Shown here: positions 1,218 to 23,023 of the stretch, in pieces
How the letters are laid out: the number at the start of each line of letters is the position of its first letter
Numbering within the stretch: position 1 is the first letter of the stretch
From: a virus
DNA length: 23,180 nucleotides
Virus record (IMG/VR): IMGVR_UViG_3300028844_003346
Location: 1,947-25,126 of that record
Reading direction: 5' to 3' (one strand)
Made by a program: the position numbers and the translations under genes
The notes under the pieces: generated by a model
What the model was told of the DNA's origin: nothing
The model's input: the letters and a program-made list of their open reading frames with translations, nothing else
Database searches by the model: none

Positions 1218-1787
1218 ATGAGCGTCCTCTTCAAAGCAGCAAAGAAGCGTTGGCTTGCCAGCCAGAAGCCTGAGTTTCTCGATAAGTACAACGCACGGCA
1301 GAATGAACTCAAGGCGGAGGGGCTGTCGTTCTATGAGCGAGAAGACGTTCTTGACGACGAGTTCGGAATTGACAAATTCCTGCTTGCGGTGGACATGGAA
1401 ATCGTGCAAGATGAGTGGGATCGCAAAAAGAAGGCAAAGGCTGCAAAGCCCACAGAGCCCCCAAGCCCCCCGGAGGACACCGAAGATGGCCCGGCGTCCA
1501 AAGGGGGGTTTGTTGCGTCTAATGATGTGGTCAATATCAAGTGGGTGGCGGAGTGTCTTCCTGACGACACCGCCAAGAAGGAGGACGCCCCCAATAATTC
1601 TGCTTGGGGACTTCTTTGCTGGGCCCGAAGAAACCCAGATCAGTTCTACACCCAGATCTTCAAGCAGGTTGTGATTCCCACCCGCAGGGAAATCGAAGAG
1701 TCCACCGACGCAGCAAATGATGAGGAACGCTTGGTCGAAGCCCTTGATCGGGTGAAGAGGATTGCTGGGGAACTCATTGAGTCTTGA
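1218..1787 (+). CDS. Terminase small subunit candidate
   Basis: 189 aa, start ATG 1218, four bases after the previous stop, with only a weak ribosome binding site. The N-terminal ~80 residues are charged and helical (predicted by eye), followed by a Pro/Glu linker (about residues 75-95, PTEPPSPPEDTEDGP) and a C-terminal domain with WGLLCWARRNPDQFY and a charged helical tail. I see no classical HTH. The call rests on position: the gene sits directly before, and overlaps by 11 bases, an unmistakable large terminase, the usual place of TerS, which recognises the packaging site and recruits TerL. Sequence alone does not prove it; it could be another packaging-region protein. Confidence 0.5.
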   Translation: MSVLFKAAKKRWLASQKPEFLDKYNARQNELKAEGLSFYEREDVLDDEFGIDKFLLAVDMEIVQDEWDRKKKAKAAKPTEPPSPPEDTEDGPASKGGFVASNDVVNIKWVAECLPDDTAKKEDAPNNSAWGLLCWARRNPDQFYTQIFKQVVIPTRREIEESTDAANDEERLVEALDRVKRIAGELIES

Positions 1788-3498
1788 GCCAAACCAAATT
1801 GTCCCCCGGGACTTGGTCAAGAACATTGATTACCGGAAGCGGATAATCCGGGCCTGTGGCTCTGATTTGGATGCCCAGAAGGATGTGGCGGCACTTTGCC
1901 GCAAGGACATCCTGTTCTGGTGGAACTCATTTGCTTTTACTTATGACCCACGGCTTTCCGCCAGCGTGGTTCCGATGGTGACGTATGAGTTTCAGGATGA
2001 TGCGATTTCTACGATCAATAACTCGATCGGTAAGTCAGATCTTGTGATCAGTAAATCCAGAGACATGGGTGCATCTTGGATGCTTGTGGGCGTGTTTTTG
2101 TGGCGATGGCTCTTCAGGGACGGCCAGTCTTTCCTGCTTGTGTCGAGAAACGAGGATTATGTAGACAAGCCGGGCAACCCAAAGTCCTTGTATTGGAAGA
2201 TAGACTTCATCATGAAGCATCTTCCCGGTTGGATGCTGCCCGAGTTTAGTAGATCAAAGTTGAGACTCAGCAACCATGCGAATGGATCGACGATTGATGG
2301 AGAGAGCACGACTGGCGATGTGGCTCGCGGTGATAGAAGGACGGCTATTGGGCTCGATGAGTTTGCCGCATTTGATACAGATGCTGGGTACCGTGCCTTG
2401 GCCGCGACCCGCGATGCGACAAACTCGCGCATCTTCAATTCGACGCCGAACGGGACCAGCAATGCGTTCCATACGGTCGCACAGAACGAAGAGATTCCGC
2501 AACTGAGGCTGCACTGGACCAAGCACCCCTCGAAGTCCAAGGGCTTGTATTACGAGGACAAGAAGCCCCGAAGCCCTTGGTACGACAGGGAAGTAAAGCG
2601 GTGCGGAAGTCCTGTTGAAGTTGCACAGGAACTGGACATCTCGTTTGGTGCATCTCAGCAGGTTTTCTTTGATCTGAAACTGCTGACCAACTACCAGCGG
2701 AAATACATCAAGTCTCCGTATGTCAGGGGCGAAATTGTATTTAGTGACAACATTCAGGATGTGTCTTTCGAGCAATCCCCGAAGGGCCGGATGAAACTCT
2801 GGGCTCACCCCGATCCGAATGGTCACATGCTGAGAGACAGGTCGTATGCAATAGGTATTGACATTGCGACAGGAACAGGGTCTAGTAACTCATGCCTTTC
2901 GATTGTCGATAGAAAAACCCGAGAAAAGATAGGCGAGTTTGCGGTGCCAAACATGAGGCCGGATCAACTGGCAAGGTACGCAGTTGCCACGGCAAGATGG
3001 CTTCGCGATGGGGCGAACTCCCCAGCCCTGCTTTGTTGGGAAGCAGCGGGGCCCGGTCGGATCTTCGGCGATGTGGTCGTTGAGGTCGGTCACCGGGAGA
3101 TTTGGTTCCGGCGAAAAGAGGGTGTCGCTGTAAAAAGACAAGGCGACATGATGGGGTGGATTCCTACCAAGGAAAACAAACTGACCTTGTTCGGAAACTA
3201 CCGCAGGCAGTTGTTTTCGGAATCGTTCATAAACAGGTCTATGGAAGCCTTGGCCGAATGCTCTGAGATTGTCTATATGCCGGGTGGAGGCATCGAGCAT
3301 TCCAGATCTGTAAGCACTCGTGACTCTTCGGGGGCACGAATGAATCACGGTGACCGTGCCACTGCGGACGCCCTTGCTTGTATGGCGATTGGTTACGAAG
3401 GCAATGCCGTAATCAAGAAGCCGAAGACGATCCAAGGATCCCTTATGTACCGGCGTAAGAAGCAAAGTGATCTCAAGCGGAAAGCACTTCAATGGTGA
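1777..3498 (+). CDS. terL: Terminase large subunit (packaging ATPase/nuclease)
   Basis: 573 aa from TTG at 1777, chosen because GGGGA (1767-1771) sits 5 bases ahead; an upstream TTG at 1762 has its purine run directly adjacent and is less likely. The ATPase domain shows a Walker A variant, SRDMGASW (about residues 94-101), and Walker B IGLDEF (about 191-196). The C-terminal RNase H-like nuclease shows GIDIATG (D about 362), CWEAAGPG (E about 420) and GDRATADALACM (last acidic residue about 534), the expected catalytic acidic triad. The N-terminal FWWNSFAFTYDPR is typical of phage terminases. The protein docks on the portal, pumps DNA with ATP and cuts concatemers. It overlaps the portal gene by 7 bases. 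Confidence 0.95.
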   Translation: MSLEPNQIVPRDLVKNIDYRKRIIRACGSDLDAQKDVAALCRKDILFWWNSFAFTYDPRLSASVVPMVTYEFQDDAISTINNSIGKSDLVISKSRDMGASWMLVGVFLWRWLFRDGQSFLLVSRNEDYVDKPGNPKSLYWKIDFIMKHLPGWMLPEFSRSKLRLSNHANGSTIDGESTTGDVARGDRRTAIGLDEFAAFDTDAGYRALAATRDATNSRIFNSTPNGTSNAFHTVAQNEEIPQLRLHWTKHPSKSKGLYYEDKKPRSPWYDREVKRCGSPVEVAQELDISFGASQQVFFDLKLLTNYQRKYIKSPYVRGEIVFSDNIQDVSFEQSPKGRMKLWAHPDPNGHMLRDRSYAIGIDIATGTGSSNSCLSIVDRKTREKIGEFAVPNMRPDQLARYAVATARWLRDGANSPALLCWEAAGPGRIFGDVVVEVGHREIWFRRKEGVAVKRQGDMMGWIPTKENKLTLFGNYRRQLFSESFINRSMEALAECSEIVYMPGGGIEHSRSVSTRDSSGARMNHGDRATADALACMAIGYEGNAVIKKPKTIQGSLMYRRKKQSDLKRKALQW

Positions 3499-5282
3499 AC
3501 AACAACCCTTACTCTAAACTTTCTCAGGCGTTTGACTGGTCACGCCTTCGCATGATGCCGTTCCGAAAAGAGCGGGTGAGTAATCTAAAGACATACCTCG
3601 GTCGTCACTACAACGGCGAAGTAACGAGCGACCGGGTTCCGGTCAACATGCTTGAGATGGCGGTGCAGATCTATCGCCGTAATTTGGTGACCGCTAATCC
3701 GACCGTTAATGTCAGCACGGACAAGAGAGACCTGCGCCCCATCTCCCGCAAGTTTCAACTGGCGATGAAGCATGTGCTGAATGAAATGGATTTCCAGACC
3801 ACGATGAACACAATCGTGTTCGATGCCATTTTTGGCATTGGTGTTGGAAAGATCGGAATCACAGAGAAGAAGATGGACGGGATGTCTGGGTACCTGCATG
3901 ACGCGGGGATGCCATTCATGGATGCCGTTGATCTCGACGATCTTGTTATGGACATGAATGCAAAGCATTGGGAAGCAATGCAGTTTGTCGGTAACAGATA
4001 CGAACTTCCTTTTGAAGAAGCCCTTGAATCTGGGATCTTTGAGTTCAAGAACAAGCCAACCCCAAAGCCGCAGCAGCCCTACAACGAATATGGCGAGATG
4101 AAAGTCACCGCGCTTGATTCTCGCTCTGCTTACGGGACTTCGACTTACACCCGTGCCAGAGATGTGATGGAGTTGTGGGACATCTATCTGCCTTACGAAG
4201 GCAAGATTTGCACTTTCTATTGTGATGACCGTGGCGTTCCGATTATGGACGCCCCTATCCGGGAGGTTGATTGGAAGGGCCCTGAAGTTGGTCCCTACAT
4301 TCCATTGAGCCTTGGGAACGTGAGTGGCAATCTCATGCCGCTTCCCCCAATCGCAAACCTTGTTGACTTGAATGATGCGCTGAACCGTTCTTTCCGAAAG
4401 ACAGTCCGGCAGTCCGACCGCCAGAAGACGGTGACTCTTGTGGCTGCTGGATCTGACGAAGATGGGGAACGGATTCTCAACGCTGATGATGGAGATATGG
4501 TTCGGGTTGACCGCCCCGAGGCTACCCGCGAGGCCAGATTCGGAGGGGTTGACCAGACGAACCTTGCGTTCTCTGTCCAACTGCGGCAGATGTTTGACTA
4601 CATGGGCGGGAATCTGTCTTCAATGGGGGGCCTCTCTGCAATGGCGGAAACGCTTGGTCAGGAAGAGATCATCAAGAAGTCCTCTTCCCAGAAGATGCAG
4701 GACATGCAGTCGCATGTCATCCAGTTTGCAAGAAAGGCGTGTGCCTCGATCGCCTCTTGGGTGTGGTACGACCCCCTTCGGACTTACGAACTGATTGACA
4801 CTGTCGATCAGACCGATATTGAGATCCCCCTGAAGTTCTCCCCCAAGGATCGCAAGGAGTCCAATTTCCTTGAGATGAACTTTGAGGTGTCTCCCTCCTC
4901 GTTGAGAGATGTCAGCCCGGAACAGAAGTTGGGGGTTCTTTCTTCTACGATTTCTAACTTCTTGATGCCTCTGGCTCCAAGCCTTCAGCAGCAGGGTCTC
5001 ACCGTAGATGCGGCATCGTTTGTCCGCCAGATCGCAGAACTCACCAACATGCCAGAGATTGAGAGCCTGATCATGCCGGTGGGATCTCAGGGTGAGGCTT
5101 CTGAGTTCCTGAAGTCAACGCAGGGCAGCACTACCCGTAAGTATGTCCGGGAGAACATCTCTACCGGCGGAACTCAGGAATCGAGGGATGCGGCAACCAT
5201 CCAGTCATTGATGGGTGCGGCCCCTGCCCCGGGCCAAGAACAGATGATGAACCAGCCGTCTGCCCGTCCCGGGTTTGCTTGA
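3492..5282 (+). CDS. Portal protein
   Basis: 596 aa, start ATG 3492 overlapping the terL stop. Order (TerL, this, scaffold, capsid), length and composition fit a portal: the N-terminus has YLGRHYNG and a segment on NLVTANP typical of the wing region. A long central part includes WDIYLPYEGKICTFY, and a helical region (about 380-430, including SSQKMQDMQSHVIQFARKAC) resembles the long portal helices. The C-terminus is Gln/Pro-rich and probably flexible. A portal dodecamer forms the DNA entry vertex and binds TerL and the neck. I recognise it by overall pattern and context rather than by a single signature motif. Confidence 0.85.
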   Translation: MVNNNPYSKLSQAFDWSRLRMMPFRKERVSNLKTYLGRHYNGEVTSDRVPVNMLEMAVQIYRRNLVTANPTVNVSTDKRDLRPISRKFQLAMKHVLNEMDFQTTMNTIVFDAIFGIGVGKIGITEKKMDGMSGYLHDAGMPFMDAVDLDDLVMDMNAKHWEAMQFVGNRYELPFEEALESGIFEFKNKPTPKPQQPYNEYGEMKVTALDSRSAYGTSTYTRARDVMELWDIYLPYEGKICTFYCDDRGVPIMDAPIREVDWKGPEVGPYIPLSLGNVSGNLMPLPPIANLVDLNDALNRSFRKTVRQSDRQKTVTLVAAGSDEDGERILNADDGDMVRVDRPEATREARFGGVDQTNLAFSVQLRQMFDYMGGNLSSMGGLSAMAETLGQEEIIKKSSSQKMQDMQSHVIQFARKACASIASWVWYDPLRTYELIDTVDQTDIEIPLKFSPKDRKESNFLEMNFEVSPSSLRDVSPEQKLGVLSSTISNFLMPLAPSLQQQGLTVDAASFVRQIAELTNMPEIESLIMPVGSQGEASEFLKSTQGSTTRKYVRENISTGGTQESRDAATIQSLMGAAPAPGQEQMMNQPSARPGFA

Positions 5283-6327: not shown

Positions 6328-7470
6328 ATGGCTATTGCCGTTTCTGATCTTCAGGATCTCATCACGACCACCCAGAAGGAACTGGGTGAACTCAAGTGGA
6401 CTGAAATCGCCACCGATCTCACTGAACATACGGCTCTTTCGAGTCTGCTTCAGGAGTCGCGGGTTCAGTTCTCCGCTGGTACCTCGGTCCAGTGGAATAT
6501 CATGGTTGACAACAGCGGCCTTGCAAAGGACACCAGTCTGTTTGCAACCGACGAAGTCAACATCGGCGATGTCATGAAGACCGCCGAAATTGGCTGGAAG
6601 CACCAGACCGTCAACTACGCCATCGAGCGTCGAGAGATTGCGTTCAACCGTGATCCCCGCCGTATCGTTGACCTCGTTGCGGTTCGCCGTGCTGACGCCA
6701 TGATCTCGCTCGCCGAGCATATGGAGAAGCGTTTCTGGGGAGCCCCGTCTTCCGAGGCCGATCTCAAGATGAACGGTGTCGGGTACTGGGTGTCCGCCGA
6801 AGGTTCTTTCCCCGCCGATGGCGTGGGTGGATTCCTCGGTGGAGATGTGTTTGCTGCTGGCACTGCCGGTCTGAGCAGCACCACCTACCCCCGTTGGCAG
6901 AACTGGGTTGGTGGTTACAACGCGGCAGACCTTACTGGTGCTAGCGGCGCAACCAACAACAACGATTACTCCAAGAGCAATTCGCTTGCTAATTCTTTCC
7001 CGGTTCTCGGGCTTGTCAGCCAGATGCGAGAGGCTTACGTCAAGACCGGCTTCAAGCCGATCGCGAATGCCAGCGTTCCCTCGTACAACACGGGTGACCG
7101 CCACGGTATCTACTGTGGGTATGCGGCTCTTGCTGGCCTTGAGCGAATCGTCGAGCGGACCAACGACAAGGTCACCTCGGCAGACCTCCAGCCCTACGCT
7201 GGCCGGGTCATGTTCCGTGGTGTTCCGATCACCTACGTTCCGCATCTTGATTCGGCTGCTACCAACAACCCGATCTACATGCTGAACTGGGGTACGTTCC
7301 ACCCGGTGTTCCTTGAGGGTGAGTACATGCGTGAGATGGGTCCGGAGATCGCTCCGAACCAGCACACCACGATGGTCACCCACATCGACTGTACGGCGAA
7401 CATCTACTGCACCGATCGTCGCCGAAACGCGGTCCTCGCCACCGCGAAGCCCGTCCTCACCAACGCCTGA
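6328..7470 (+). CDS. Major capsid protein
   Basis: 380 aa. The call rests on place after the scaffold, length, strong ribosome binding site and fold-like composition. An N-terminal helical arm (DLQDLITTTQKELGELKW) is followed by a mixed alpha/beta body with a spine-like helix region near LVAVRRADAMISLAEHMEKRFWG (about 115-137), a Gly/Ala/Asn-rich loop (about 165-220), and a C-terminal beta-rich part with RGVPITYVPHLD and WGTFHPVFLEGEYMRE (about 290-335). RGVPI..VP in a late strand is frequent in HK97-fold capsids. The codon use looks well adapted, with many C-ending codons, unlike several neighbours. I cannot assign a specific capsid family without a search. Confidence 0.85.
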   Translation: MAIAVSDLQDLITTTQKELGELKWTEIATDLTEHTALSSLLQESRVQFSAGTSVQWNIMVDNSGLAKDTSLFATDEVNIGDVMKTAEIGWKHQTVNYAIERREIAFNRDPRRIVDLVAVRRADAMISLAEHMEKRFWGAPSSEADLKMNGVGYWVSAEGSFPADGVGGFLGGDVFAAGTAGLSSTTYPRWQNWVGGYNAADLTGASGATNNNDYSKSNSLANSFPVLGLVSQMREAYVKTGFKPIANASVPSYNTGDRHGIYCGYAALAGLERIVERTNDKVTSADLQPYAGRVMFRGVPITYVPHLDSAATNNPIYMLNWGTFHPVFLEGEYMREMGPEIAPNQHTTMVTHIDCTANIYCTDRRRNAVLATAKPVLTNA

Positions 7471-8254: not shown

Positions 8255-8620
8255 ATGCCGTTGCCAACGTACAACTTTGAGTTTGTCAAAGGCGAGACCG
8301 TTGATCTGACGGTTGATTACAAAGACTCAACGGGTTCTGTGATTGACCTGTCGAGCAACTACACAGTGACGATGCAGGGTCGAACGGAAGCGTCTTCTTC
8401 TTCGACCCTTTTTAGTTTGGCAAGTGGAAGCGGGATTACGCTTTCTTCAAGTTCTCCCAACATCACGATCAGGCTTTCAAAGACTGTGACTGATACAATC
8501 ACAGCACCAACTTCTGGCGTTTACGACATCAAGGTGGCGGAGACCGCGTCCAACCCTGATGTTGTGAAATACATTCTCACTGGGAAGTTCACGGTTTACG
8601 AGGCGGTGACCAGTGCCTGA
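8255..8620 (+). CDS. Ig-like beta-sandwich protein ahead of the tail fibre
   Basis: 121 aa, ATG 8255 with GGGGA (8244-8248) as ribosome binding site. The order of elements is F-x-KGETVDLTVDYKD, G..IDLSS, a strand with TMQGR, a Ser-rich loop, ITIRLS, a GVYDIKV strand and a final KFTVYE strand. This is a pattern I know from small phage proteins (BppU N-terminal-like or Ig-like) that often lie just before tail fibre genes and link fibres to the baseplate or neck. A shorter relative lies at 17335-17631. It overlaps the fibre gene by 8 bases, supporting coupled synthesis. Confidence 0.7.
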   Translation: MPLPTYNFEFVKGETVDLTVDYKDSTGSVIDLSSNYTVTMQGRTEASSSSTLFSLASGSGITLSSSSPNITIRLSKTVTDTITAPTSGVYDIKVAETASNPDVVKYILTGKFTVYEAVTSA

Positions 8621-10574
8621 CGTTACTGTCACAGAAGAAAATTTGCAGGTTGTTGTCGCAGAGCCCGGCCCGCAAGGGGCTCCCGGGCAAGCAGGATCAG
8701 CCTTCACTCCTGCTGCTGACAGCGGGACTGGGGCTCCGGTATCGGGTTCGTTCACGGTTACTGGCGGCAACAATATCACGACGGCAGTCAGTGGCGCGAC
8801 TGTCACCGTGAACGCGGACCTTGCGGGAACTGTTACCTCGGTGACTCCGCAGGGTGACAATGGTTCCGGGACTGAAATCACCGGCAGCGGCAACATCAAG
8901 GTTGCCGGTACTGCTCCGATTTCTACGAACGTAGTCGGTGACACGATCACCGTCACGCATGACACGAAAGCAGGAACCGGAACCAGCACGAACTATCCGG
9001 GTTCGATCGAGGTTGACTCGTTCGGGCATGTCCTCGGCGTCGGAACGTCTGCACCTCCGGCTCAGGCCGCGAACAACCTGAGCGATCTGGCGAACGCGGG
9101 GACCGCTCGAACAAACCTCGGTCTTGGTAGTTCCTCGACCCTCGACGTTCCGTCATCTGGTGACGCAGCGTCGGGTGAGGTTGTCAAAGGCAACGACACG
9201 CGACTGACCGACGCTCGCACGCCTACGACGACGCTTGAGCATGACGCGAACAAGATCACTACCGGGCAACTTGTTGCTGCACGGGGTGGTACAGGATTGT
9301 CCTCGATCTCAACGCTCCTCAACTCGAACACGACGAAGTCGGACGTTGGTCTTGGGACGACGCTCGGTCTGGGAAACGCCGCGATCCTCGACACGGGGAT
9401 TGGAAACACCGACCTTCTCAAGTGTGGAGCGAACGTCTCCCAAAGCGACTTCCTTCGCATCAACGCCTTGAGCGGATTGGTTGAAGGCCGAACGGCTGCC
9501 GAAGTCTTGTCGGACATCGGAGCCGCTACGTCTGCGCAGGGGACGAAAGCGGACTCCGCGTTGCAGGATGTCGTGAGCGATACGACTCCGCAACTCGGTG
9601 GCAACCTCGACGTTCAGGCTCGTACCATCACGACCTCAACGACGAACGGCAGCATCGTCATCGACCCCCCCGGCACTGGATTCTTGCAGGTCGAGGGGAC
9701 GACGAACCCCGGCAAGATTCGACTGATGTGCGAGGTTGGATCGCACGGCGTCGGGCTGAAGAGTCCCGCCCATAGCGCGGGAGCGAACTACGATCTCGTG
9801 CTTCCTACCGCGACGGGTTCGGCAAACGAAGCACTGAAGACTGATGGCAGCGGGAACCTCGGCTGGGGTAGTTTCGTGGCAACGTCTGCGGTCTCGACCT
9901 TTGGCGGTACGCTCATTGATGATGCAAACGCAGCGGCAGCAAGGACGACGCTTGGAGGAACGACTGTAGGTTCGAACGTCTTCACGGCGGCAGATCAGGC
10001 AGCAGCCAGATCAGCGATCGGCGTCGGGACCGGGACCGGCGACATGGTCGGGTCGAACAACCTCTCAGATGTGACGAACGTGGGGACCGCTCGCACGAAC
10101 CTTGGAGCAACCACGGTCGGTGCGAATGTGTTTACTGCTGCTGATGCTGCTGCCGCTCGGTCTGCAATCGGTGCGGGAAGTGGTACAGGCGATCTCGTTG
10201 CTTCCAACAACTTGAGCGACCTTGCTAGTGCAGCAACTGCCCGAACGAATCTTGGCATCACGAACACTGGTTCGTACACCGGACATATCGAGACGGCAGC
10301 AAACAAGACCTACGTTCTTGATCCTTCTGCGGCAACGGACCGAACGATCTCCGCCTTCTACATCAAGGTAAACAGTGGATCGGGAACGGTAAGTGCTGAA
10401 CTAAAGGTCGGAACGAGTAGCGTGAAGACCGTTACCGCTTCCACATCTACGGGAGTCATAACGAGTCTTCACCCCGGAGCATCGGTGGTTACGGCAGGTG
10501 ACGCGATCACGCTCGTCTTTTCTTCGAACAGTTCTGCGACCGATGTCATTTTCTCAGTGGAATACACCGAATGA
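8613..10574 (+). CDS. Tail fibre protein with modular repeats
   Basis: 653 aa from GTG 8613, inside the preceding gene. The N-terminus (about 1-40) carries a short collagen-like segment, GPQGAPGQAG. The body consists of fibre-type modules: NNLSDLxxxxTARTNLG at residues 154, 482 and 532, GGNLDVQARTITTS near 330, and LKTDGSGNLGWG near 408. A 50-residue unit is tandemly repeated (residues 443-492 and 493-542). The last ~100 residues form a separate beta-rich domain. Such elongated trimeric fibres bind host surface receptors. No chaperone or peptidase domain is visible at the C-terminus. The gene shares ATGA with the next gene, whose product may be its tip or partner. Confidence 0.85.
   Translation: MPDVTVTEENLQVVVAEPGPQGAPGQAGSAFTPAADSGTGAPVSGSFTVTGGNNITTAVSGATVTVNADLAGTVTSVTPQGDNGSGTEITGSGNIKVAGTAPISTNVVGDTITVTHDTKAGTGTSTNYPGSIEVDSFGHVLGVGTSAPPAQAANNLSDLANAGTARTNLGLGSSSTLDVPSSGDAASGEVVKGNDTRLTDARTPTTTLEHDANKITTGQLVAARGGTGLSSISTLLNSNTTKSDVGLGTTLGLGNAAILDTGIGNTDLLKCGANVSQSDFLRINALSGLVEGRTAAEVLSDIGAATSAQGTKADSALQDVVSDTTPQLGGNLDVQARTITTSTTNGSIVIDPPGTGFLQVEGTTNPGKIRLMCEVGSHGVGLKSPAHSAGANYDLVLPTATGSANEALKTDGSGNLGWGSFVATSAVSTFGGTLIDDANAAAARTTLGGTTVGSNVFTAADQAAARSAIGVGTGTGDMVGSNNLSDVTNVGTARTNLGATTVGANVFTAADAAAARSAIGAGSGTGDLVASNNLSDLASAATARTNLGITNTGSYTGHIETAANKTYVLDPSAATDRTISAFYIKVNSGSGTVSAELKVGTSSVKTVTASTSTGVITSLHPGASVVTAGDAITLVFSSNSSATDVIFSVEYTE
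9939..10238 (+). repeat. Two tandem 150-bp coding modules in the tail fibre
   Basis: Codons 9939-10088 and 10089-10238 encode two 50-residue units with the same framework (LGxTTVGxNVFTAAD, AAARSAIGxGxGTGD, SNNLSD), and a third copy begins at 10239. The protein sequences are close, but the DNA copies differ at many third codon positions, for example in the GTCTTCACGGCGGCAGAT and GTGTTTACTGCTGCTGAT blocks. The period is exactly 150 bases. Confidence 0.8.
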
Positions 10575-11210: not shown

Positions 11211-11438
11211 ATGGACACGATCTTTACTTTCGCTTCTCTCACGCAGGCTCTTGCCACCGTTCAAGGTGGACTCGGCACGCTCGGCTACGCTTACAAGGAA
11301 ACTGCTCCTCGTACCGCTTTGGATGATGCGCACATCGACCTGCTTGTCGCTTCGGCGAACGAGATGATTGCGGCAGCGACTGCTCTGAAGTCGATCGAAT
11401 ACGACCCGACTCCGTTCCCTCCGGCGGAAGGGCCGTGA
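11211..11438 (+). CDS. Small hypothetical protein, 75 aa
   Basis: ATG 11211 begins one base after the preceding stop, with AGGTGA just upstream. The product is Ala/Thr-rich and largely helical by eye (a central DDAHIDLLVASANEMIAAATAL helix read in two parts), ending in the Pro-rich PTPFPPAEGP. There is no membrane segment or recognised motif. As the last gene of the fibre module it could be a small structural or assembly protein. A 56-base gap with only a ribosome binding site follows. Confidence 0.65.
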   Translation: MDTIFTFASLTQALATVQGGLGTLGYAYKETAPRTALDDAHIDLLVASANEMIAAATALKSIEYDPTPFPPAEGP

Positions 11439-11494: not shown

Positions 11495-11800
11495 ATGGCA
11501 AAGCGAGTAGACAAAAGCAAGATGAAGTGCAACTCTCCCACGCGAAGCACCAAGGCTGGCAAGAAGCGAATGGTCAAGGCGTGCGAGGGTGGCAAGGAAA
11601 AACTGATTCACTTCGGTGCGTCTGCCTATCCCCACAACTACTCTGACTCTGCGCGGAAGAACTTCCGGGCTCGCCATAGTTGTGACGAAAGCCCCTCTAA
11701 GTTGTCCGCAAGGTACTGGGCCTGCAAGGCTCTGTGGACCAAGGGTGGCAGCAAGAAGTCAAGCGGGTCCAAGGGGGGTACCTATCGTGGCAAAAAGTAA
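11495..11800 (+). CDS. Basic Cys-containing phage protein, first of a basic cassette
   Basis: 101 aa, ATG 11495 with AGAAGGG about 8 bases upstream. It carries roughly 27 Lys+Arg against 6 acidic residues. It contains FGAS..., ARKNFRARHSCDESPSKLSARYWACKALW (about 53-80, read in blocks) and a Lys/Gly/Ser tail. The FRARHxC...K.SARYWxCK pattern is one I remember from conserved hypothetical proteins of aquatic phages, usually near structural genes. Four cysteines (12, 30, 63 and 76, approximate) could bind metal. Charge suggests nucleic-acid or capsid-DNA contact; no activity is known to me. Confidence 0.75.
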   Translation: MAKRVDKSKMKCNSPTRSTKAGKKRMVKACEGGKEKLIHFGASAYPHNYSDSARKNFRARHSCDESPSKLSARYWACKALWTKGGSKKSSGSKGGTYRGKK

Positions 11801-11939
11801 AAAGAGCAAGCCCCTCGACGAGTGCGCCCAAATGGCCAAGCGCACTTACAAAGTCTGGCCATCTGCATACGCAAGCGGTTACGCTGTCAAATGCCGGAAG
11901 GCTGGTGGCGTTGCTAAGTTCAAGAAAGGAAAAAAGTAA
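11787..11939 (+). CDS. 50-aa basic protein with VWPSAYASG motif
   Basis: The frame is open far upstream, but GTG 11787, preceded by the very strong AAGGGGGG (11771-11778) within the end of the previous gene, is the credible start (14-base overlap). The product reads KPLDECAQMAKRTYKVWPS, then AYASGYAVKCRKAGG, then a Lys-rich tail. KYKVWPSAYAS..xVKCRK is a motif I know from phage and large-virus proteins of unknown function, where it is normally part of a longer chain; here it is a free-standing mini-protein. Two cysteines (14 and 37, approximate) flank the motif. Confidence 0.7.
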   Translation: MAKSKKSKPLDECAQMAKRTYKVWPSAYASGYAVKCRKAGGVAKFKKGKK

Positions 11940-12136
11940 TGTTCAACATCGGCAATCGAGTGATGGAAGCGGCAAAAAAGAATGTGGAACTGGCCCAGAA
12001 GGGGGCAGCCAAGAAGAAGCGTAAGAGGCCGCCTAATCAGACAAGGCCCGCAGATCAAATGAAGCGAGAGCCGGTGGAAATGAGACGCAAGGGCAAGATG
12101 AGTGCGCGGCGACCGGGCGGAAAGTACGGCAAGTGA
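11939..12136 (+). CDS. 65-aa basic protein, unknown function
   Basis: ATG 11939 overlaps the previous stop (TAATG) with AAAGGA about 9 bases ahead. A short N-terminal amphipathic helix (FNIGNRVMEAAKKNVELAQKG) precedes a disordered Lys/Arg/Pro-rich tail (KKKRKRPPNQTRP, ending GGKYGK). There are no cysteines. The tail resembles a nucleic-acid-binding or nuclear-signal-like basic stretch, but here it simply shows the compositional bias shared by the whole cassette. Confidence 0.65.
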   Translation: MFNIGNRVMEAAKKNVELAQKGAAKKKRKRPPNQTRPADQMKREPVEMRRKGKMSARRPGGKYGK

Positions 12137-12324
12137 GCCTCAAGACTTGGTTTGGGCAAAACAACGGCAAGGGCTGGATCGACTGCAAGACTGGGAAGCC
12201 TTGTGGAAGAAAGTCAGCGAAGGGAAAGTCAAAGCGTAAGTATCCCGCATGTAGGCCAACGAAGGCCCAGTGCACGAGCAAAGGAACTCGGGCCAAGAAG
12301 GGTCCAGAAAGGGTCAAGTGGTAA
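12133..12324 (+). CDS. 63-aa basic protein with four cysteines (KGWIDC..PCGR..PACRPT)
   Basis: GTG 12133 overlaps the previous TGA as GTGA. The product reads WFGQNNGKGWIDC, then KTGKPCGRK, a Lys-rich linker, YPACRPTKAQC, and a PERVKW end. Spacing is C18-x5-C24-x15-C40-x6-C47, compatible with a small metal-bound ribbon. I recall this GWxDCxxxxPCGR...YPACRPT arrangement from conserved hypothetical proteins of aquatic phages and large viruses. No function is assigned. The strong match to that pattern makes the gene real despite its size and non-ATG start. Confidence 0.7.
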   Translation: MSLKTWFGQNNGKGWIDCKTGKPCGRKSAKGKSKRKYPACRPTKAQCTSKGTRAKKGPERVKW

Positions 12325-12488
12325 TGCCGAAGGTCAAGACTAAGGATGGCAAGGTCAGGCAGTTCGGGTACACGGCTGCGGAGAAGCGTGCCGCTGAAGC
12401 CTACGCAAAGTCAACCGGGGGCCAGTTGCTTGCTGACCCGAAGAGAGAAGCAGAAGAAGGCCGTAAGAAGAAAGCGAAGGGCTACTGA
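12324..12488 (+). CDS. 54-aa basic protein, unknown function
   Basis: ATG 12324 overlaps the previous stop (TAATG); AGAAAGGG lies about 9 bases ahead. The product begins MPKVKTKDGKVRQFGYTA, followed by a helix rich in Ala, Lys and Glu (EKRAAEAYAKSTGG) and a basic end (EEGRKKKAKGY). It is similar in style to short phage proteins with a GKxRxFxYT strand followed by a helix. The frame is open upstream to 12270, but that extension is a shadow of the preceding gene. Confidence 0.6.
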   Translation: MPKVKTKDGKVRQFGYTAAEKRAAEAYAKSTGGQLLADPKREAEEGRKKKAKGY

Positions 12489-12904
12489 TGGCAAAGAAGA
12501 AGAGGGGCGGCATGATCCCGGGAGGGATGGATTCGGTCCTTAAAAAAACGGTTCGGGATTCCACGGCCAAAGCCCCCGCATCGAGTGCCGAAAAGACCCT
12601 GAAGGGCGCAAAGCCACTACCGCCCTACGCGAGTGTGGCTCCTACTGCAAAAAATAAGAGGGTGATTAGCCCAGAGGGTTATGCCACTTTCAGCAAATCA
12701 TTAGACGGTGGCATGGAACGAGGAAAAATTACCCGTGGGGATTATGGGGCTGCGGACGGGATACAAAAGTCAAAGAAGGCTGGTACATCCTCAAGGGGGG
12801 CGAGGAGAAGTCAGGAAGACTACTTCGCAAAAAAGATTTATTGGATCAGGAAAAACAACCCGTCAGTGCGGGGGATTACAAAGAACAAGAAGGGTGAGAA
12901 GTAA
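12488..12904 (+). CDS. 138-aa basic protein, unknown function
   Basis: ATG 12488 overlaps the previous stop as TGATG. The start MAKKKRGGMIPGG and the Lys-rich C-terminus (NKKGEK) match the compositional style of its neighbours. The middle is Ser/Ala/Pro-rich with ISPEGYATFSKSLDGG and RGDYGAADG, and a helix (EDYFAKKIYWIRKNNPSV) comes near the end. No known domain is recognised. The Gly- and Lys-rich ends suggest a flexible nucleic-acid-contacting protein. Confidence 0.65.
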   Translation: MAKKKRGGMIPGGMDSVLKKTVRDSTAKAPASSAEKTLKGAKPLPPYASVAPTAKNKRVISPEGYATFSKSLDGGMERGKITRGDYGAADGIQKSKKAGTSSRGARRSQEDYFAKKIYWIRKNNPSVRGITKNKKGEK

Positions 12905-13437
12905 TGGCAAAGAAGACAAAGACGAAGACTCCAGTTCTCATCACTGCTGAAGCGGCAAAGCGTCGAAGGCGGACAGATGCGATGATCGCAAAAAACACGC
13001 CGCCCCAAGATGCGGCAGCCGAAAAATCTCGGGCCAAGAAGTTTGCCAAGATCAAGAAGCGGAACTTCATTAAAAATGAAGAAACCGTAGCGCAGAAGCA
13101 AGTGCGGCTTGGGGTGCGAAGCAAGAAGCGCATTCGCAAGGCAGCAAAAGCCGCCAACGACATGCTGGCTATCGACCCCGACAGCAAGGATGGCGAAAGA
13201 CTCCGTAGTTTTGCTGGGGATGAAAAACCACCCATTGGTAAATCTCGCTACTCCGGAGGGAAGGGCCTCGGGCGAGACACAGGCAAGACCGTCGCCGAGC
13301 ATATTGAAGGTGCCGAAAAGAGGGCTAGGAAGTTTTTGGATAAGGCCAAAGATGACAAGTATTTTTCTGAACACGGCGAGTTCCCTCCGGGCAGCAAGCG
13401 GAGCGGTCGCAGTAAAAACAAGAAGGGCAAGAAGTAA
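12904..13437 (+). CDS. 177-aa basic protein, last of the cassette
   Basis: ATG 12904 overlaps the previous stop (TAATG) with AAGGGTGAG upstream. The N-terminus is MAKKTKTKTP, followed by a helical Lys/Arg/Ala-rich region (about 15-90, including EKSRAKKFAKIKKRNF and RSKKRIRKAAKAAND), a short acidic patch and a Gly/Lys end (SKNKKGKK). Alternating basic and alanine-rich helices resemble histone-like or DNA-condensing proteins, but I recognise no family. It is followed immediately (TAATG) by a non-basic, virion-like protein. Confidence 0.65.
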   Translation: MAKKTKTKTPVLITAEAAKRRRRTDAMIAKNTPPQDAAAEKSRAKKFAKIKKRNFIKNEETVAQKQVRLGVRSKKRIRKAAKAANDMLAIDPDSKDGERLRSFAGDEKPPIGKSRYSGGKGLGRDTGKTVAEHIEGAEKRARKFLDKAKDDKYFSEHGEFPPGSKRSGRSKNKKGKK

Positions 13438-13853
13438 TGGCAAACGAAATTCGATTCACTGGGTCCATCGTGACCACCGCTACAAACTTTAGTGAGACCA
13501 TCTCCCCGGGTCAGATCTCCATTGATCTGCCTAGTGGGCCTGATCTGACTTCTGAGTCTGGCGTGCAGGCGACTACCACGGCTGCGGCTGGTGTTGCGTT
13601 GACCGTGGGAAACCTAACCAGTTCTAAGGATGGGGGCGTCTACTTCTTCCGAAACCTCGGAACTACCACGGGCGACAACATCGAGATTGGGGCCACGCTC
13701 GGCGGTTCCTTTGAAGCGTTTATGATGCTGAAGCCCGGGGAGTACGCAATGGGGCGTCTGCCCTCGTCCTATCCCGCCGCCAGCGCACTGAAGATCCGGT
13801 CGGTCGCAAACACACCGTCTCTCCAGTACAAGATCTACGCTGGCGATCTTTGA
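13437..13853 (+). CDS. Beta-rich virion-like protein, 138 aa
   Basis: ATG 13437 overlaps the stop of the last basic gene. The composition changes sharply: Thr/Ser/Gly-rich, few Lys, beta-strands by eye. Features are GSIVTTATNFSETISPGQ near the start, a GGVYFFRNLGTTTGDNIEIG strand pair (about 63-82, in blocks), LKPGEYAMGRLP and KIRSV...LQYKIYAGDL at the end. This looks like a small virion or decoration/tail-associated beta-sandwich as seen in other phages. It is the last gene before an intrinsic terminator. Confidence 0.65.
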   Translation: MANEIRFTGSIVTTATNFSETISPGQISIDLPSGPDLTSESGVQATTTAAAGVALTVGNLTSSKDGGVYFFRNLGTTTGDNIEIGATLGGSFEAFMMLKPGEYAMGRLPSSYPAASALKIRSVANTPSLQYKIYAGDL

Positions 13854-13950: not shown

Positions 13951-14724
13951 ATGACTGACTACTACTCGCATCCAGCGTTGAGTCATTCTCGGTTGAAGGT
14001 GATCGAGAAGTCTCCCTCTCATTTCAAGTACAACCTCGACGCCCCAAGCATGGCTTCGGACGCCCTAAAACTAGGGAGTCTGGTCCACGCGATGGTGTTG
14101 GAGCCGCACACCGTGGAGGGTGCGTTCGTCCGGTGTGAGAAGATCGACCGCCGCACAAAGGCTGGCAAGGAGCGATGGGCAGAACTCCAAGAGTCTGATC
14201 AGACAGTGATCCCCGCTGATATGTGGGACACCGCTGAGTCGATGTCGGGTGCCGTGATGACCTGCCCGGCAGCGAGGGACATGGTGGACGAGGCGATCGC
14301 CATGAACAGCGTGGAAGTCGAGTTCTTCTGGGATGACAATAAATACGGTTGCCAGCGAAAGGCAAAGATTGATGGGTTGATCGAGAGGTCGATCATCGAC
14401 CTGAAGACTACGACTGATGCGACCCGTGGTTTTTCCAAGTCGGTCATGAAGTATTTTTACCACACTCAGGGGGCCTACTACCGTGACGCCATCAGGTCTC
14501 ACGGCGGGAAGCAGGAGGACTTCAGGATCATTGCGGTTGAGAAGACACCCCCCTACGCGGTGGCGATCGTCAGGTTTGATTACGCGGTGCTTGATTGGGC
14601 CAAGGAGAAAGTTGATCAGTGGCTTGAAACCTACCGCTCGTGCTTGTCTGCAAACTCTTGGCCCGGTTTCACGGGCATGACTAATTTTGAAATCCCTTCA
14701 TGGGCAAAGGAAAGTGATGACTGA
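13951..14724 (+). CDS. RecE-like PD-(D/E)xK exonuclease
   Basis: 257 aa, first gene after terminator and promoter. The N-terminus (SHPALSHSRLKVIEKSPSHF) is the typical opening of RecE/exodeoxyribonuclease VIII-like phage nucleases. LGSLVHAMVLEP (about 41-52) supplies the conserved His46. The catalytic core is KAKIDG (D141) and IIDLKTT (D150, K152), followed by HTQGAYYRDA (Q173, Y176-177). These enzymes resect double-stranded DNA ends 5' to 3' and expose 3' single strands for a partner annealing protein, encoded next. Length is close to phage members that lack the long E. coli RecE N-terminal part. ATG is chosen because the frame has no upstream context and the promoter falls just before it. 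Confidence 0.85.
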   Translation: MTDYYSHPALSHSRLKVIEKSPSHFKYNLDAPSMASDALKLGSLVHAMVLEPHTVEGAFVRCEKIDRRTKAGKERWAELQESDQTVIPADMWDTAESMSGAVMTCPAARDMVDEAIAMNSVEVEFFWDDNKYGCQRKAKIDGLIERSIIDLKTTTDATRGFSKSVMKYFYHTQGAYYRDAIRSHGGKQEDFRIIAVEKTPPYAVAIVRFDYAVLDWAKEKVDQWLETYRSCLSANSWPGFTGMTNFEIPSWAKESDD

Positions 14725-20718: not shown

Positions 20719-21287
20719 ATTTCAAAGGCAAGCAAAACCCGTTTTCAGAGTCATTCCGAAGCAACCTGCAAAGGGTTGCTGACGGTGTCGCTGATTATCT
20801 GGAGAACCGCGCCGGGTATCTAATGGCTTCTCGCAAGCCTGAGCCCCGGATTCCGCGTGGCTTTGTTGCGACAATACTTGAGTCTCGGCTGATTAATGGT
20901 TTGGACGCTGGCCCGTTTAGCGGCGGAAATGTAAATGACGAAGTCAAAAACGTGTGGATGTACCAATGGGTTGACCAGCAAACTCAGGGGCAATCTTCAA
21001 GTTCGAGAGGCTATTCCTTCTTTGCACTGAATGGCGCAGAGTTTGGCAACACGGGTTCGGGCAGTGAATCTTATGGGGTGGGAGTTTCAAGCGGGTCTCC
21101 CGCCATTGAGTTGTTGCCCATTGGAAATTACGGAGCAGTCTCCCCCTCTGTATTTATGCACCTGCTTCCGGCCCCGGTCTCGATCACCCTTCCTCTTTAC
21201 CAGCCCGGCGGCGCGGCGGCGGGGCAAGTGACCGTGTCTACCCCATATATATTCTTCGCTGGCAACGAAGTGGAGGTCACCTGCTGA
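20715..21287 (+). CDS. Hypothetical virion protein, 190 aa
   Basis: I prefer TTG 20715, which overlaps the previous stop (TTGA); ATG 20658 would add 19 residues that shadow the upstream gene, and neither start has a strong Shine-Dalgarno. The N-terminus is helical (RSNLQRVADGVADYLENRAGYL), then a Gly/Ser/Asn-rich region with SSSRGYSFFALNGAEFGNTGSGSESYGVG (in blocks), then hydrophobic beta-strands (PAIELLPIGNYGAVSPS and FFAGNEVEVTC). One cysteine sits at the end, just before the Cys-rich gene. No recognised family; it looks like a virion surface protein. Confidence 0.6.
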   Translation: MNFKGKQNPFSESFRSNLQRVADGVADYLENRAGYLMASRKPEPRIPRGFVATILESRLINGLDAGPFSGGNVNDEVKNVWMYQWVDQQTQGQSSSSRGYSFFALNGAEFGNTGSGSESYGVGVSSGSPAIELLPIGNYGAVSPSVFMHLLPAPVSITLPLYQPGGAAAGQVTVSTPYIFFAGNEVEVTC

Positions 21288-23023
21288 TGGCCTCCTTGTT
21301 CACCAAATGCTGCTGCACCGGCAACTGTTTCTGGGGATGGAACTCCCTTGGAAACCTTGGCGATGACTTTGGGTTTTGCTCGCACAACACGACCGAGCAG
21401 TTGTACCTGCGTATTCCAAGAGGTGAGTTTACGACTTCTTCGACAAAGACAGTTCCGTCGAACATTGATTGCGGGTGTTCGGGGACTGTCCAGTTGAACA
21501 ACAAGGCGTCTGGCACTACCGACATTATCGTCAAGTACCAGCACTACCCCGGAGAGTCAGGAACAAGGCTGTACAACTGGAAGTGGTATGACCCGTTTGA
21601 CTCTACCCCTAAGTGCGGGACATCGGGGATTGAACTTGTCAGGAACTGCTGGGGCTACGACTCTTCGGGAACAAGCGATGACGATTGTTGCGGGGATCCC
21701 ACTGATACCACGAAATGCCAGTCCGTCTGGAGAAACCCCACCGATCCTTCGAGTGGCGTGGAAACGTACATGGCGAAGGGGCAAAGGGACATATGCAGTG
21801 GTGTGCCCCTCGATCGAACCGTAAACACTACTAACGGGGGAACCCCAATCGTAGAGTCAGAAAAAGACTTTGGCGACGGGTTCCGGTGGCTTGAAAATAT
21901 TGCCAACTACGAGACGGGTGTCGGTCAGAAGAGATTCAAGAAGTGGAACTATGACACCACGAGTGGCTGGACATCGAGTGACCGCATACTCGTAGGCACC
22001 ATGTTTGTCGTTCTGCACAGGACCAAGTGGTACAAGAGGTACTTCAATTCCATCCATCCAGATGACGGTGGCAGTGAAACCGGAACTGTTGCGTCTTGCA
22101 GGACTCCCCAATACTGGGTCTACGAATGCTCTGGCTTCCCGATCTTCAGTTGGGAGATTAAGAATGCCCCGACCAGTGTGATTACGGAAACTCAAAAGCA
22201 GCAGTTGTTTTTGGACAAAGCCGCTGGCGACCCCATGAACCAAGAGGTACTCGATGCCCTTGTTTCTCACTTGGGTTGTGAGCCGAAGGATCACAGTCAG
22301 GCAAACGGAGAGGTTGTTTTCCGCACTCTCACTGATGTCAACGGGGACACCTATGACCATTACGCCTACGCAAGGGAGGCGGGATGGAAGAGTGTTTGCT
22401 ACGACAAGGACACTGTTGGGAAGTTCCCGCAATGGGAAACCGCCGAGTATGGCAACACCTCTTGTGACGCTGCCCCGGGATGTGATTGCTGCTTTACTGC
22501 GGCACCGATTCCCCAGTCAACGTCATGCTCTGTGTTTGACCCGAACAATGTGAATTGCAGTTGGGACGAATGCGGCAGTGCCCCTGCGGGATGTTCGCCC
22601 CTTGTCTCCGATTGCGACTTTAGCAATACGCCCACTGGGTGCGCCATCGACAGTGCGGTTGGCGACTGCTCTGGGATTTGGTTCCACTACAACCAGTATT
22701 GCAACGCTCTGGTTTTGCCTCCGGGAGCAAGCAACCACACGGGCGGGTACGAGTGCTGTGTTCACAACGAAGCATTCCTGTGTGTGGTCCCCAACGCATT
22801 GTCTGTTTGCGACTGCTCCACCCTTCCTTTCTATGGGCCCCAATCTCCTATTCCCCCCGCAGTGAGCAGCAGTATTCGGAACGGAGTTTCTGCTCTGAAC
22901 ACTAATTGCTGCGGGGGCAAAAGCACCTTGTATGAAACGGTTGGAGATAAATTCTGCGACAGGTGCAATTCAAACAACACCCAAGTTTGCAGCAACCCCG
23001 AAGATTCTGAATTCTGTGACTGA
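21287..23023 (+). CDS. Cysteine-rich protein, 578 aa, unknown function
   Basis: ATG 21287 overlaps the previous stop. About 40 cysteines (roughly 7%) occur, very high for a phage protein: the N-terminus starts MASLFTKCCCTGNCFWGWN, with later pairs DCGC and DDDCCGD. About 23 lie in the last ~186 residues (from about 393), as in GCDCC, YECC, VCDCS, NCC and CDRC. The middle (about 150-390) is ordinary, with WVYECSGFPIFSWEIKN and a helical DKAAGDPMNQEVLDALVSHLG. No signal peptide or membrane segment. Many disulphides or bound metals are likely; disulphides would need an oxidising site, suggesting a virion surface or fibre role. No known domain is recognised, and similarity to secreted Cys-knot or EGF-like folds is only superficial. 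Confidence 0.65.
   Translation: MASLFTKCCCTGNCFWGWNSLGNLGDDFGFCSHNTTEQLYLRIPRGEFTTSSTKTVPSNIDCGCSGTVQLNNKASGTTDIIVKYQHYPGESGTRLYNWKWYDPFDSTPKCGTSGIELVRNCWGYDSSGTSDDDCCGDPTDTTKCQSVWRNPTDPSSGVETYMAKGQRDICSGVPLDRTVNTTNGGTPIVESEKDFGDGFRWLENIANYETGVGQKRFKKWNYDTTSGWTSSDRILVGTMFVVLHRTKWYKRYFNSIHPDDGGSETGTVASCRTPQYWVYECSGFPIFSWEIKNAPTSVITETQKQQLFLDKAAGDPMNQEVLDALVSHLGCEPKDHSQANGEVVFRTLTDVNGDTYDHYAYAREAGWKSVCYDKDTVGKFPQWETAEYGNTSCDAAPGCDCCFTAAPIPQSTSCSVFDPNNVNCSWDECGSAPAGCSPLVSDCDFSNTPTGCAIDSAVGDCSGIWFHYNQYCNALVLPPGASNHTGGYECCVHNEAFLCVVPNALSVCDCSTLPFYGPQSPIPPAVSSSIRNGVSALNTNCCGGKSTLYETVGDKFCDRCNSNNTQVCSNPEDSEFCD

Follow-up and report, generated by a model that had tools for sequence, protein, structure and literature searches.

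The DNA analysed here (the window) is a stretch of 23,180 nucleotides within a record of 25,126 bases from a tailed phage. It encodes a terminase large subunit (1762-3498) and a major head protein (6328-7470), both identified by PHROG matches; the gene at 3492-5282, which has no PHROG match, is taken as the portal by position alone. A fibre-like protein (8613-10574) and an exonuclease VIII-like protein (13951-14724) are encoded further on, as is a 578-aa protein that is unusually cysteine-rich and without a PHROG match (21287-23023). Positions 11495-13437 are occupied by seven consecutive overlapping genes, g1 to g7, with products of 50-177 aa (Table 1). Every open reading frame and junction is as the original prediction, made from the letters of the DNA, had described: from g1 to the boundary gene d8, the junctions are a 14-base overlap, TAATG, GTGA, TAATG, TGATG, TAATG and TAATG. 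The seven products contain 24-32% Lys+Arg, with a pI of 10.0-11.6 and a net charge of +8 to +30, a strongly basic composition that they share with protamine- and histone-like virion proteins that condense genomes. The 75-aa and 138-aa flanking products are acidic (pI 4.2 and 4.7), and the composition shifts at 13437. If seven of the 33 called genes count as basic, their falling in one run has P = 6e-6 under random gene order. Codon preference in the genes' own frames exceeds that of random synonymous codons for g1, g3, g4, g5 and g7, and is borderline for g2 and g6 (P = 0.07).

Table 1. Genes and features of the basic cassette and its borders (window coordinates).
Feature	Position	Strand	Description
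Upstream boundary gene	11211..11438	+	75 aa, acidic; L088 and L089 have relatives at this end of the cassette
g1	11495..11800	+	101 aa, FRARHxC protein, DUF5754/Tlr6F-like
g2	11787..11939	+	50 aa, GTG start, 14-nt overlap with g1, KVWPSAYASG protein, DUF5872-type N-terminal half
g3	11939..12136	+	65 aa, basic protein, no relatives found
g4	12133..12324	+	63 aa, GTG start, GWIDC..PCG..PACRPT, DUF5872-type C-terminal half, four invariant cysteines
g5	12324..12488	+	54 aa, PKV..FxYT..A..AYAK mini-protein
g6	12488..12904	+	138 aa, basic protein, no relatives found
g7	12904..13437	+	177 aa, basic protein, weak partial similarities; codon preference P < 0.002
Junction repeat, reference copy	12881..12911	+	g6 end/g7 start; 31-nt direct repeat
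d8	13437..13853	+	138 aa, acidic; conserved boundary gene closing the cassette; L086, L088 and L089 have it in the same position, at 56-96% identity

Three motifs that had been noted in the sequence (FRARHxC in g1, KVWPSAYASG in g2 and GWIDC...PACRPT in g4) prove to mark genuine conserved domains, and the profile searches proposed at the time link all three genes to catalogued families. g1 has at least 594 relatives among IMG/VR viral contigs. It resembles DUF5754 (PF19058), the Tlr6F family known from giant viruses, virophages and polinton-like viruses (PMC4642659, PMC12220804). Nearly every polinton-like virus is described as carrying Tlr6F, as are many giant viruses and some phages, with no known function for the conserved protein (PMC4642659). 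The g1 relatives match this profile consistently (27 of 29), with scores short of the Pfam cut-off and a best E-value of 2.8e-4; g1 of the window scores 16.8 bits, below the curated cut-off of 27.4, and a relative that was scanned singly also falls below it. We therefore call g1 DUF5754-like on its sequence score and do not file it as a family member; it also departs from the family in its Lys-rich tail and its two cysteine pairs. These cysteines, at 12/30 and 63/77, come or go strictly pairwise: all four are present in 78 proteins, one pair in 5 and 1, none in 6 and half a pair in 0.

The predicted structure of g1 consists of a hairpin and two helices (pLDDT 76). It matches phage proteins at E-values down to 6e-11, as well as the predicted structure of Tunisvirus V9SE36 (Foldseek probability 1.00, E 4.9e-3, TM about 0.5). 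Among solved structures (PDB), neither the g1 model nor a sequence search gave a significant match. Arm-type integrase and AP2 domains were considered as possible DNA-binding folds. Since they appear only at E > 1, with TM ≤0.25 by query length, and since VIA-align of the model returns no DNA-binding fold at Z 2, we claim no such fold for g1.

The second and third motifs belong together. g4 has at least 593 relatives among IMG/VR viral contigs, with 26 positions invariant in 26 members. In the best 80 of these loci, g2 lies upstream of g4 on the same strand in every case, within 400 bp in 73 of them and with a median gap of 50 bases. Because the IMG/VR searches gave the best 80 relatives, locus counts describe close relatives. 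The 80 loci form 21 groups when at least 500 bases of flanking DNA are shared, and 46 groups at 3,000 bases. Conserved order in distant phages, which the original prediction had set as a test of a functional system, is thus found for g2 and g4 across at least 21 flank groups. In more distant contigs the two genes form a single protein; a strict test finds four such cases, and inspection by eye more. One such fusion, in contig L071, matches DUF5872 (PF19197) over nearly its full length (7.8e-14, 52.7 bits), which identifies g2 and g4 as halves of DUF5872 in the same order. The window proteins themselves score lower, g2 at 14.6 bits against a cut-off of 27.5 and g4 with no match to the profile. 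We therefore call them split and DUF5872-related, as judged from sequence, rather than full family members.

g2 and g4 correspond to the N- and C-terminal halves of DUF5872, and fused phage relatives exceed the profile cut-off. In contrast to the family, the window has two genes with an unrelated gene between them, and the fused proteins lack the second cysteine pair found in g4-type proteins. At positions 18 and 47 of g4 the cysteines are again paired, with both present in 59 proteins and neither in 11. The pairing in g1 and g4 fits disulphides or paired metal ligands. The predicted structure of g4 was too poor for a structure search, and a mixed alignment of fused, g2 and g4 proteins was discarded because it paired g4 with the wrong half. 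The annotation of the algal giant virus CpV-BQ1 includes DUF5872 as well as DUF5754 (PMC12085832). The idea that the motifs had been split into free-standing mini-proteins holds for two of the three, which are fused in relatives. Since g1 and g2/g4 belong with catalogued families, "undescribed" was too strong a word for these parts; for the cassette as a unit, we found no description in the open-access library searched, the DUF families themselves being known.

A capsid protein 80-95% identical to that of the window is present in eleven contigs, three of which reach the cassette. Their gene sets differ. In L089 the order is g1, g2, another basic gene, g4, g5 and d8, and in L088 it is a DUF6321 gene (PF19846, 5.6e-16), g2, g4, g5, two tandem basic genes and d8; in L086 only g5 stands ahead of d8. 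A search of the window's record for DUF6321 gave no match, and its search controls likewise gave none. The comparison of these contigs shows that the place and the boundary gene are fixed and that the shared order is kept, while the set of genes varies. The sharp end at 13437 had been read as the mark of a discrete unit. The composition break is real, but a fixed seven-gene unit is ruled out by the differing content of the relatives; membership varies even among near ones, and the cassette is thus a modular island. The within-lineage dN/dS of g1, g2, g4 and g5 is about 0.07-0.23, against 0.14 for the capsid protein (unsaturated dS only; dS is high in most pairs). For g5, which is present in all three contigs, pN is 0.20-0.31 against a pS of 0.68-0.83, and g5-like short proteins were seen by eye in several unrelated loci. 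After g5 in L088, tandem similar basic ORFs of 157 and 137 aa (11762-12694) have apparently arisen by recent duplication.

The same pattern extends well beyond this lineage. Within the fetched flanks of the best 80 of at least 594 g1 loci, g2 is found in 38 at E 0.01. When the basic ORFs near these genes were clustered, 16 families occurred in at least 11 loci each, among them DUF6321, several unnamed mini-proteins and a divergent g2 relative (no. 6); in all, at least 15 families of basic mini-proteins recur in these neighbourhoods. The window cassette is one instance of a widespread mix-and-match cassette that occurs in many marine viruses unrelated to one another. Four of its genes are under purifying selection, which is strong for g1, g2 and g4 (median dN/dS of 0.125, 0.171 and 0.112, respectively, with no pair at or above 1 among hundreds) and extends to g5. 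Near-neutral dN/dS, which had been named as a result that would speak against a functional cassette, is not seen in these four genes. The remaining genes are less well documented. For g3 and g6, which make up about a third of the cassette coding length and are known from composition, frame and position alone, we found no relatives among viral contigs at the sensitivity of the search. g7 has weak partial similarity to basic ORFs adjoining g2-g4 in L094 and L111, and no relatives beyond these in the viral-contig scan at its sensitivity.

Chaperonin GroEL/GroES-like genes adjoin the cassette in many related loci (by eye; L006, L033, L050, L064, L071 and L078), and Flavobacterium phage elemoE (L177) has an annotated chaperonin gene beside it. 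In a collection of bacterial and archaeal genomes, g4 relatives occur in only six contigs (L189-L194), all from metagenome-assembled genomes, which is what the binning of phage contigs together with their hosts would lead one to expect.

The basic C-terminal tails described in the original prediction are real, although the near-identity ascribed to most of them applies to g6 and g7 only, and loosely to g2. In 592 related mini-proteins, Lys/Arg makes up 47% of the final 8 residues and 27% of the remaining sequence. A near-identical 31-nt repeat covers the g6/g7 and g7/d8 junctions, the copy at 13414-13444 being 90% identical to the reference copy at 12881-12911 and another, at 11916-11946, 71% identical. 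This repeat could be a homology linker for the exchange of cassette genes. Together with a slight purine excess in tails that are coupled to a following gene, the first two copies also lend something to the alternative that the cassette is neutral or mechanically repeated coding sequence, with Lys tails produced by embedded ribosome-binding sites and junctions by duplication. However, the tails are basic with or without a following gene (Lys/Arg of 0.49 when coupled and 0.46 when uncoupled), so that embedded ribosome-binding sites have a small effect only. Moreover, dN/dS values of 0.11-0.17 over hundreds of pairs and conserved cores with invariant residues rule out chance or neutral sequence for g1, g2, g4 and g5. 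We find this alternative, largely refuted for those four genes, scarcely credible.

What the cassette might do is suggested by the company that its domains keep in other phages. In Aphanizomenon phage CL131, the g1 domain is embedded in a portal-InPase-MuF protein of 1393 aa (iE 1.3e-21). In Aeromonas phage 2L372X, it stands N-terminal to an XkdF protease domain in the protein 2L372X_100 (iE 2.7e-20), the gene for which sits between terminase and capsid genes. The g1 model also has a structural match to ORF125 of Vibrio phage ICP1, named as a predicted capsid protease (PMC9040626, PMC7567579). In the cyanomyoviruses S-RIM8 and S-SM1, a single protein (gp114/T4-GC119) combines a g4-like stretch, seen by eye, with a g2 module and, as detected by HMM in S-RIM8, DUF6321. 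It differs from the cassette in being one protein of 495-591 aa with another module order, encoded beside the neck and terminase genes (gp13-gp16). The S-SM1 gene bearing the g2 module is annotated as hypothetical; the S-SM1 study reports 41 virion proteins (PMC3037559). Papers on the CHAB-I-5 and CHUG roseophages contain proteomic trees only, with no virion proteomics.

Gene placement elsewhere points the same way. Prochlorococcus podovirus P-SCSP2 has g2-like, DUF5872-C and DUF6321 genes between its scaffold and major capsid genes, the g4-type gene matching the C-terminal half of DUF5872 at 53.3 bits (5e-14) and the DUF6321 gene its profile at 3.9e-24. Phage C72C1 has its terminase gene on one side of the g2-g4 pair and its portal gene on the other. 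Of the larger neighbours closest to g4 across 33 flank groups, nine proteins are terminase large subunits and three are head-tail adaptors, and many have no assigned function. Against a link to the head, the cassette of the window sits past the fibre genes and adjoins neither portal nor capsid. No portal, MuF or protease domain was found in the window proteins, which have only the accessory domain in common with these head proteins.

The evidence is, in our estimate, evenly poised for the reading that the cassette is a late structural-gene island encoding free-standing, highly basic versions of head-protein domains. Because its parts are also fused to shell-building proteins of other phages, the cassette proteins would most likely work inside the virus head, where they are probably in contact with DNA and possibly packaged. 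In such a scheme, the conserved cores would dock on the head (in the procapsid interior, at the portal or at the packaging vertex), the Lys-rich tails would bind DNA without sequence specificity, and the proteins would assist in organising, packaging or retaining the genome, with which they may be ejected. The charge of g1 bears on this division of labour. The median net charge of g1 domains is +22 when they stand alone, and fused ones have only +3 to +7, so that the extra charge is an addition to a core that can dispense with it. This contrast suggests a docking core with a DNA- or acid-binding tail, and the core itself need not bind DNA.

In a competing reading, the proteins may be non-virion nucleic-acid-binding proteins that act late in infection, as regulators or as modifiers of the host nucleoid or translation, and are merely housed in structural operons. 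Small, basic and variable gene sets whose membership shifts among near relatives do resemble accessory gene islands, and some loci adjoin chaperonin, tail or unknown genes rather than capsid genes. Nevertheless, fusion of the g1 domain to portal and head proteases is unexpected for host-takeover genes, and the presence of g2, g4-like and DUF6321 modules in a protein encoded beside neck and terminase genes, as well as the P-SCSP2 placement, also argues against it. We judge this explanation unlikely, while according it serious weight. A role as ejection proteins, which would be packaged in the head and enter the host with the DNA so as to protect or mobilise it there, would be compatible with all the evidence for head association, and the number and variety of small proteins fit a cargo role. 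Since well-known ejection proteins are mostly large, we regard this role as improbable. Slightly less probable still is a role as helpers in the assembly of tails or fibres, or as proteins of the virion surface with disulphides as stabilisers. Many g1 loci adjoin large fibre-like genes, and the strictly pairwise gain and loss of cysteines in g1 and g4 is as expected for disulphides or metal sites, but it is head proteins to which the domains were seen fused, and the sole tail link is a weak PHROG match between S-SSM7 gp114 and a family of tail lysins.

If the proteins do act on DNA in the head, their total charge limits how. A 43-kb genome has roughly 86,000 charges; with one set of seven carrying +127, 100 copies of each protein would offset about 15% of them, which makes full neutralisation of the genome implausible. 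A local or vertex role therefore fits better than condensation of the whole genome. A published statement that no evidence shows basic proteins to contribute greatly to neutralising phage DNA (PMC3281028) counts against our reading. The basic DNA-binding virion proteins of the chlorovirus PBCV-1 and the protamine-like proteins of eukaryotic DNA viruses (PMC3281028, PMC6163548) are alike in proposed working only, as basic proteins that accompany packaged DNA, with no apparent sequence relationship to the phage proteins, which would likewise be packaged and bind DNA. A bolder version of our reading is that many marine tailed phages carry a multi-part set of exchangeable, packaged, DNA-organising mini-proteins, a protamine-like counterpart in phages, made up of domains that they have in common with giant viruses and polinton-like viruses. 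We consider it doubtful as a whole; were it true, it would provide the first function for the Tlr6F and DUF5872 families. Packaging by itself would add a protein component, unnoticed until now, to the packaged genome of tailed phages.

In any case, tying Tlr6F and DUF5872 to a recurrent, selected cassette with portal and head-protease fusions yields a concrete hypothesis of head association, and one for which there are cultured phages to test it in. Pelagiphage HTVC106P carries g1, g2-like and g4-like genes, and Roseobacter phage CRP-902 carries g4. The g4 gene is unannotated in both CRP-902 (L188, 3971-4204) and Roseobacter phage CRP-901 (L179), and the g1-type gene of these two phages is labelled "HVA1 family protein."
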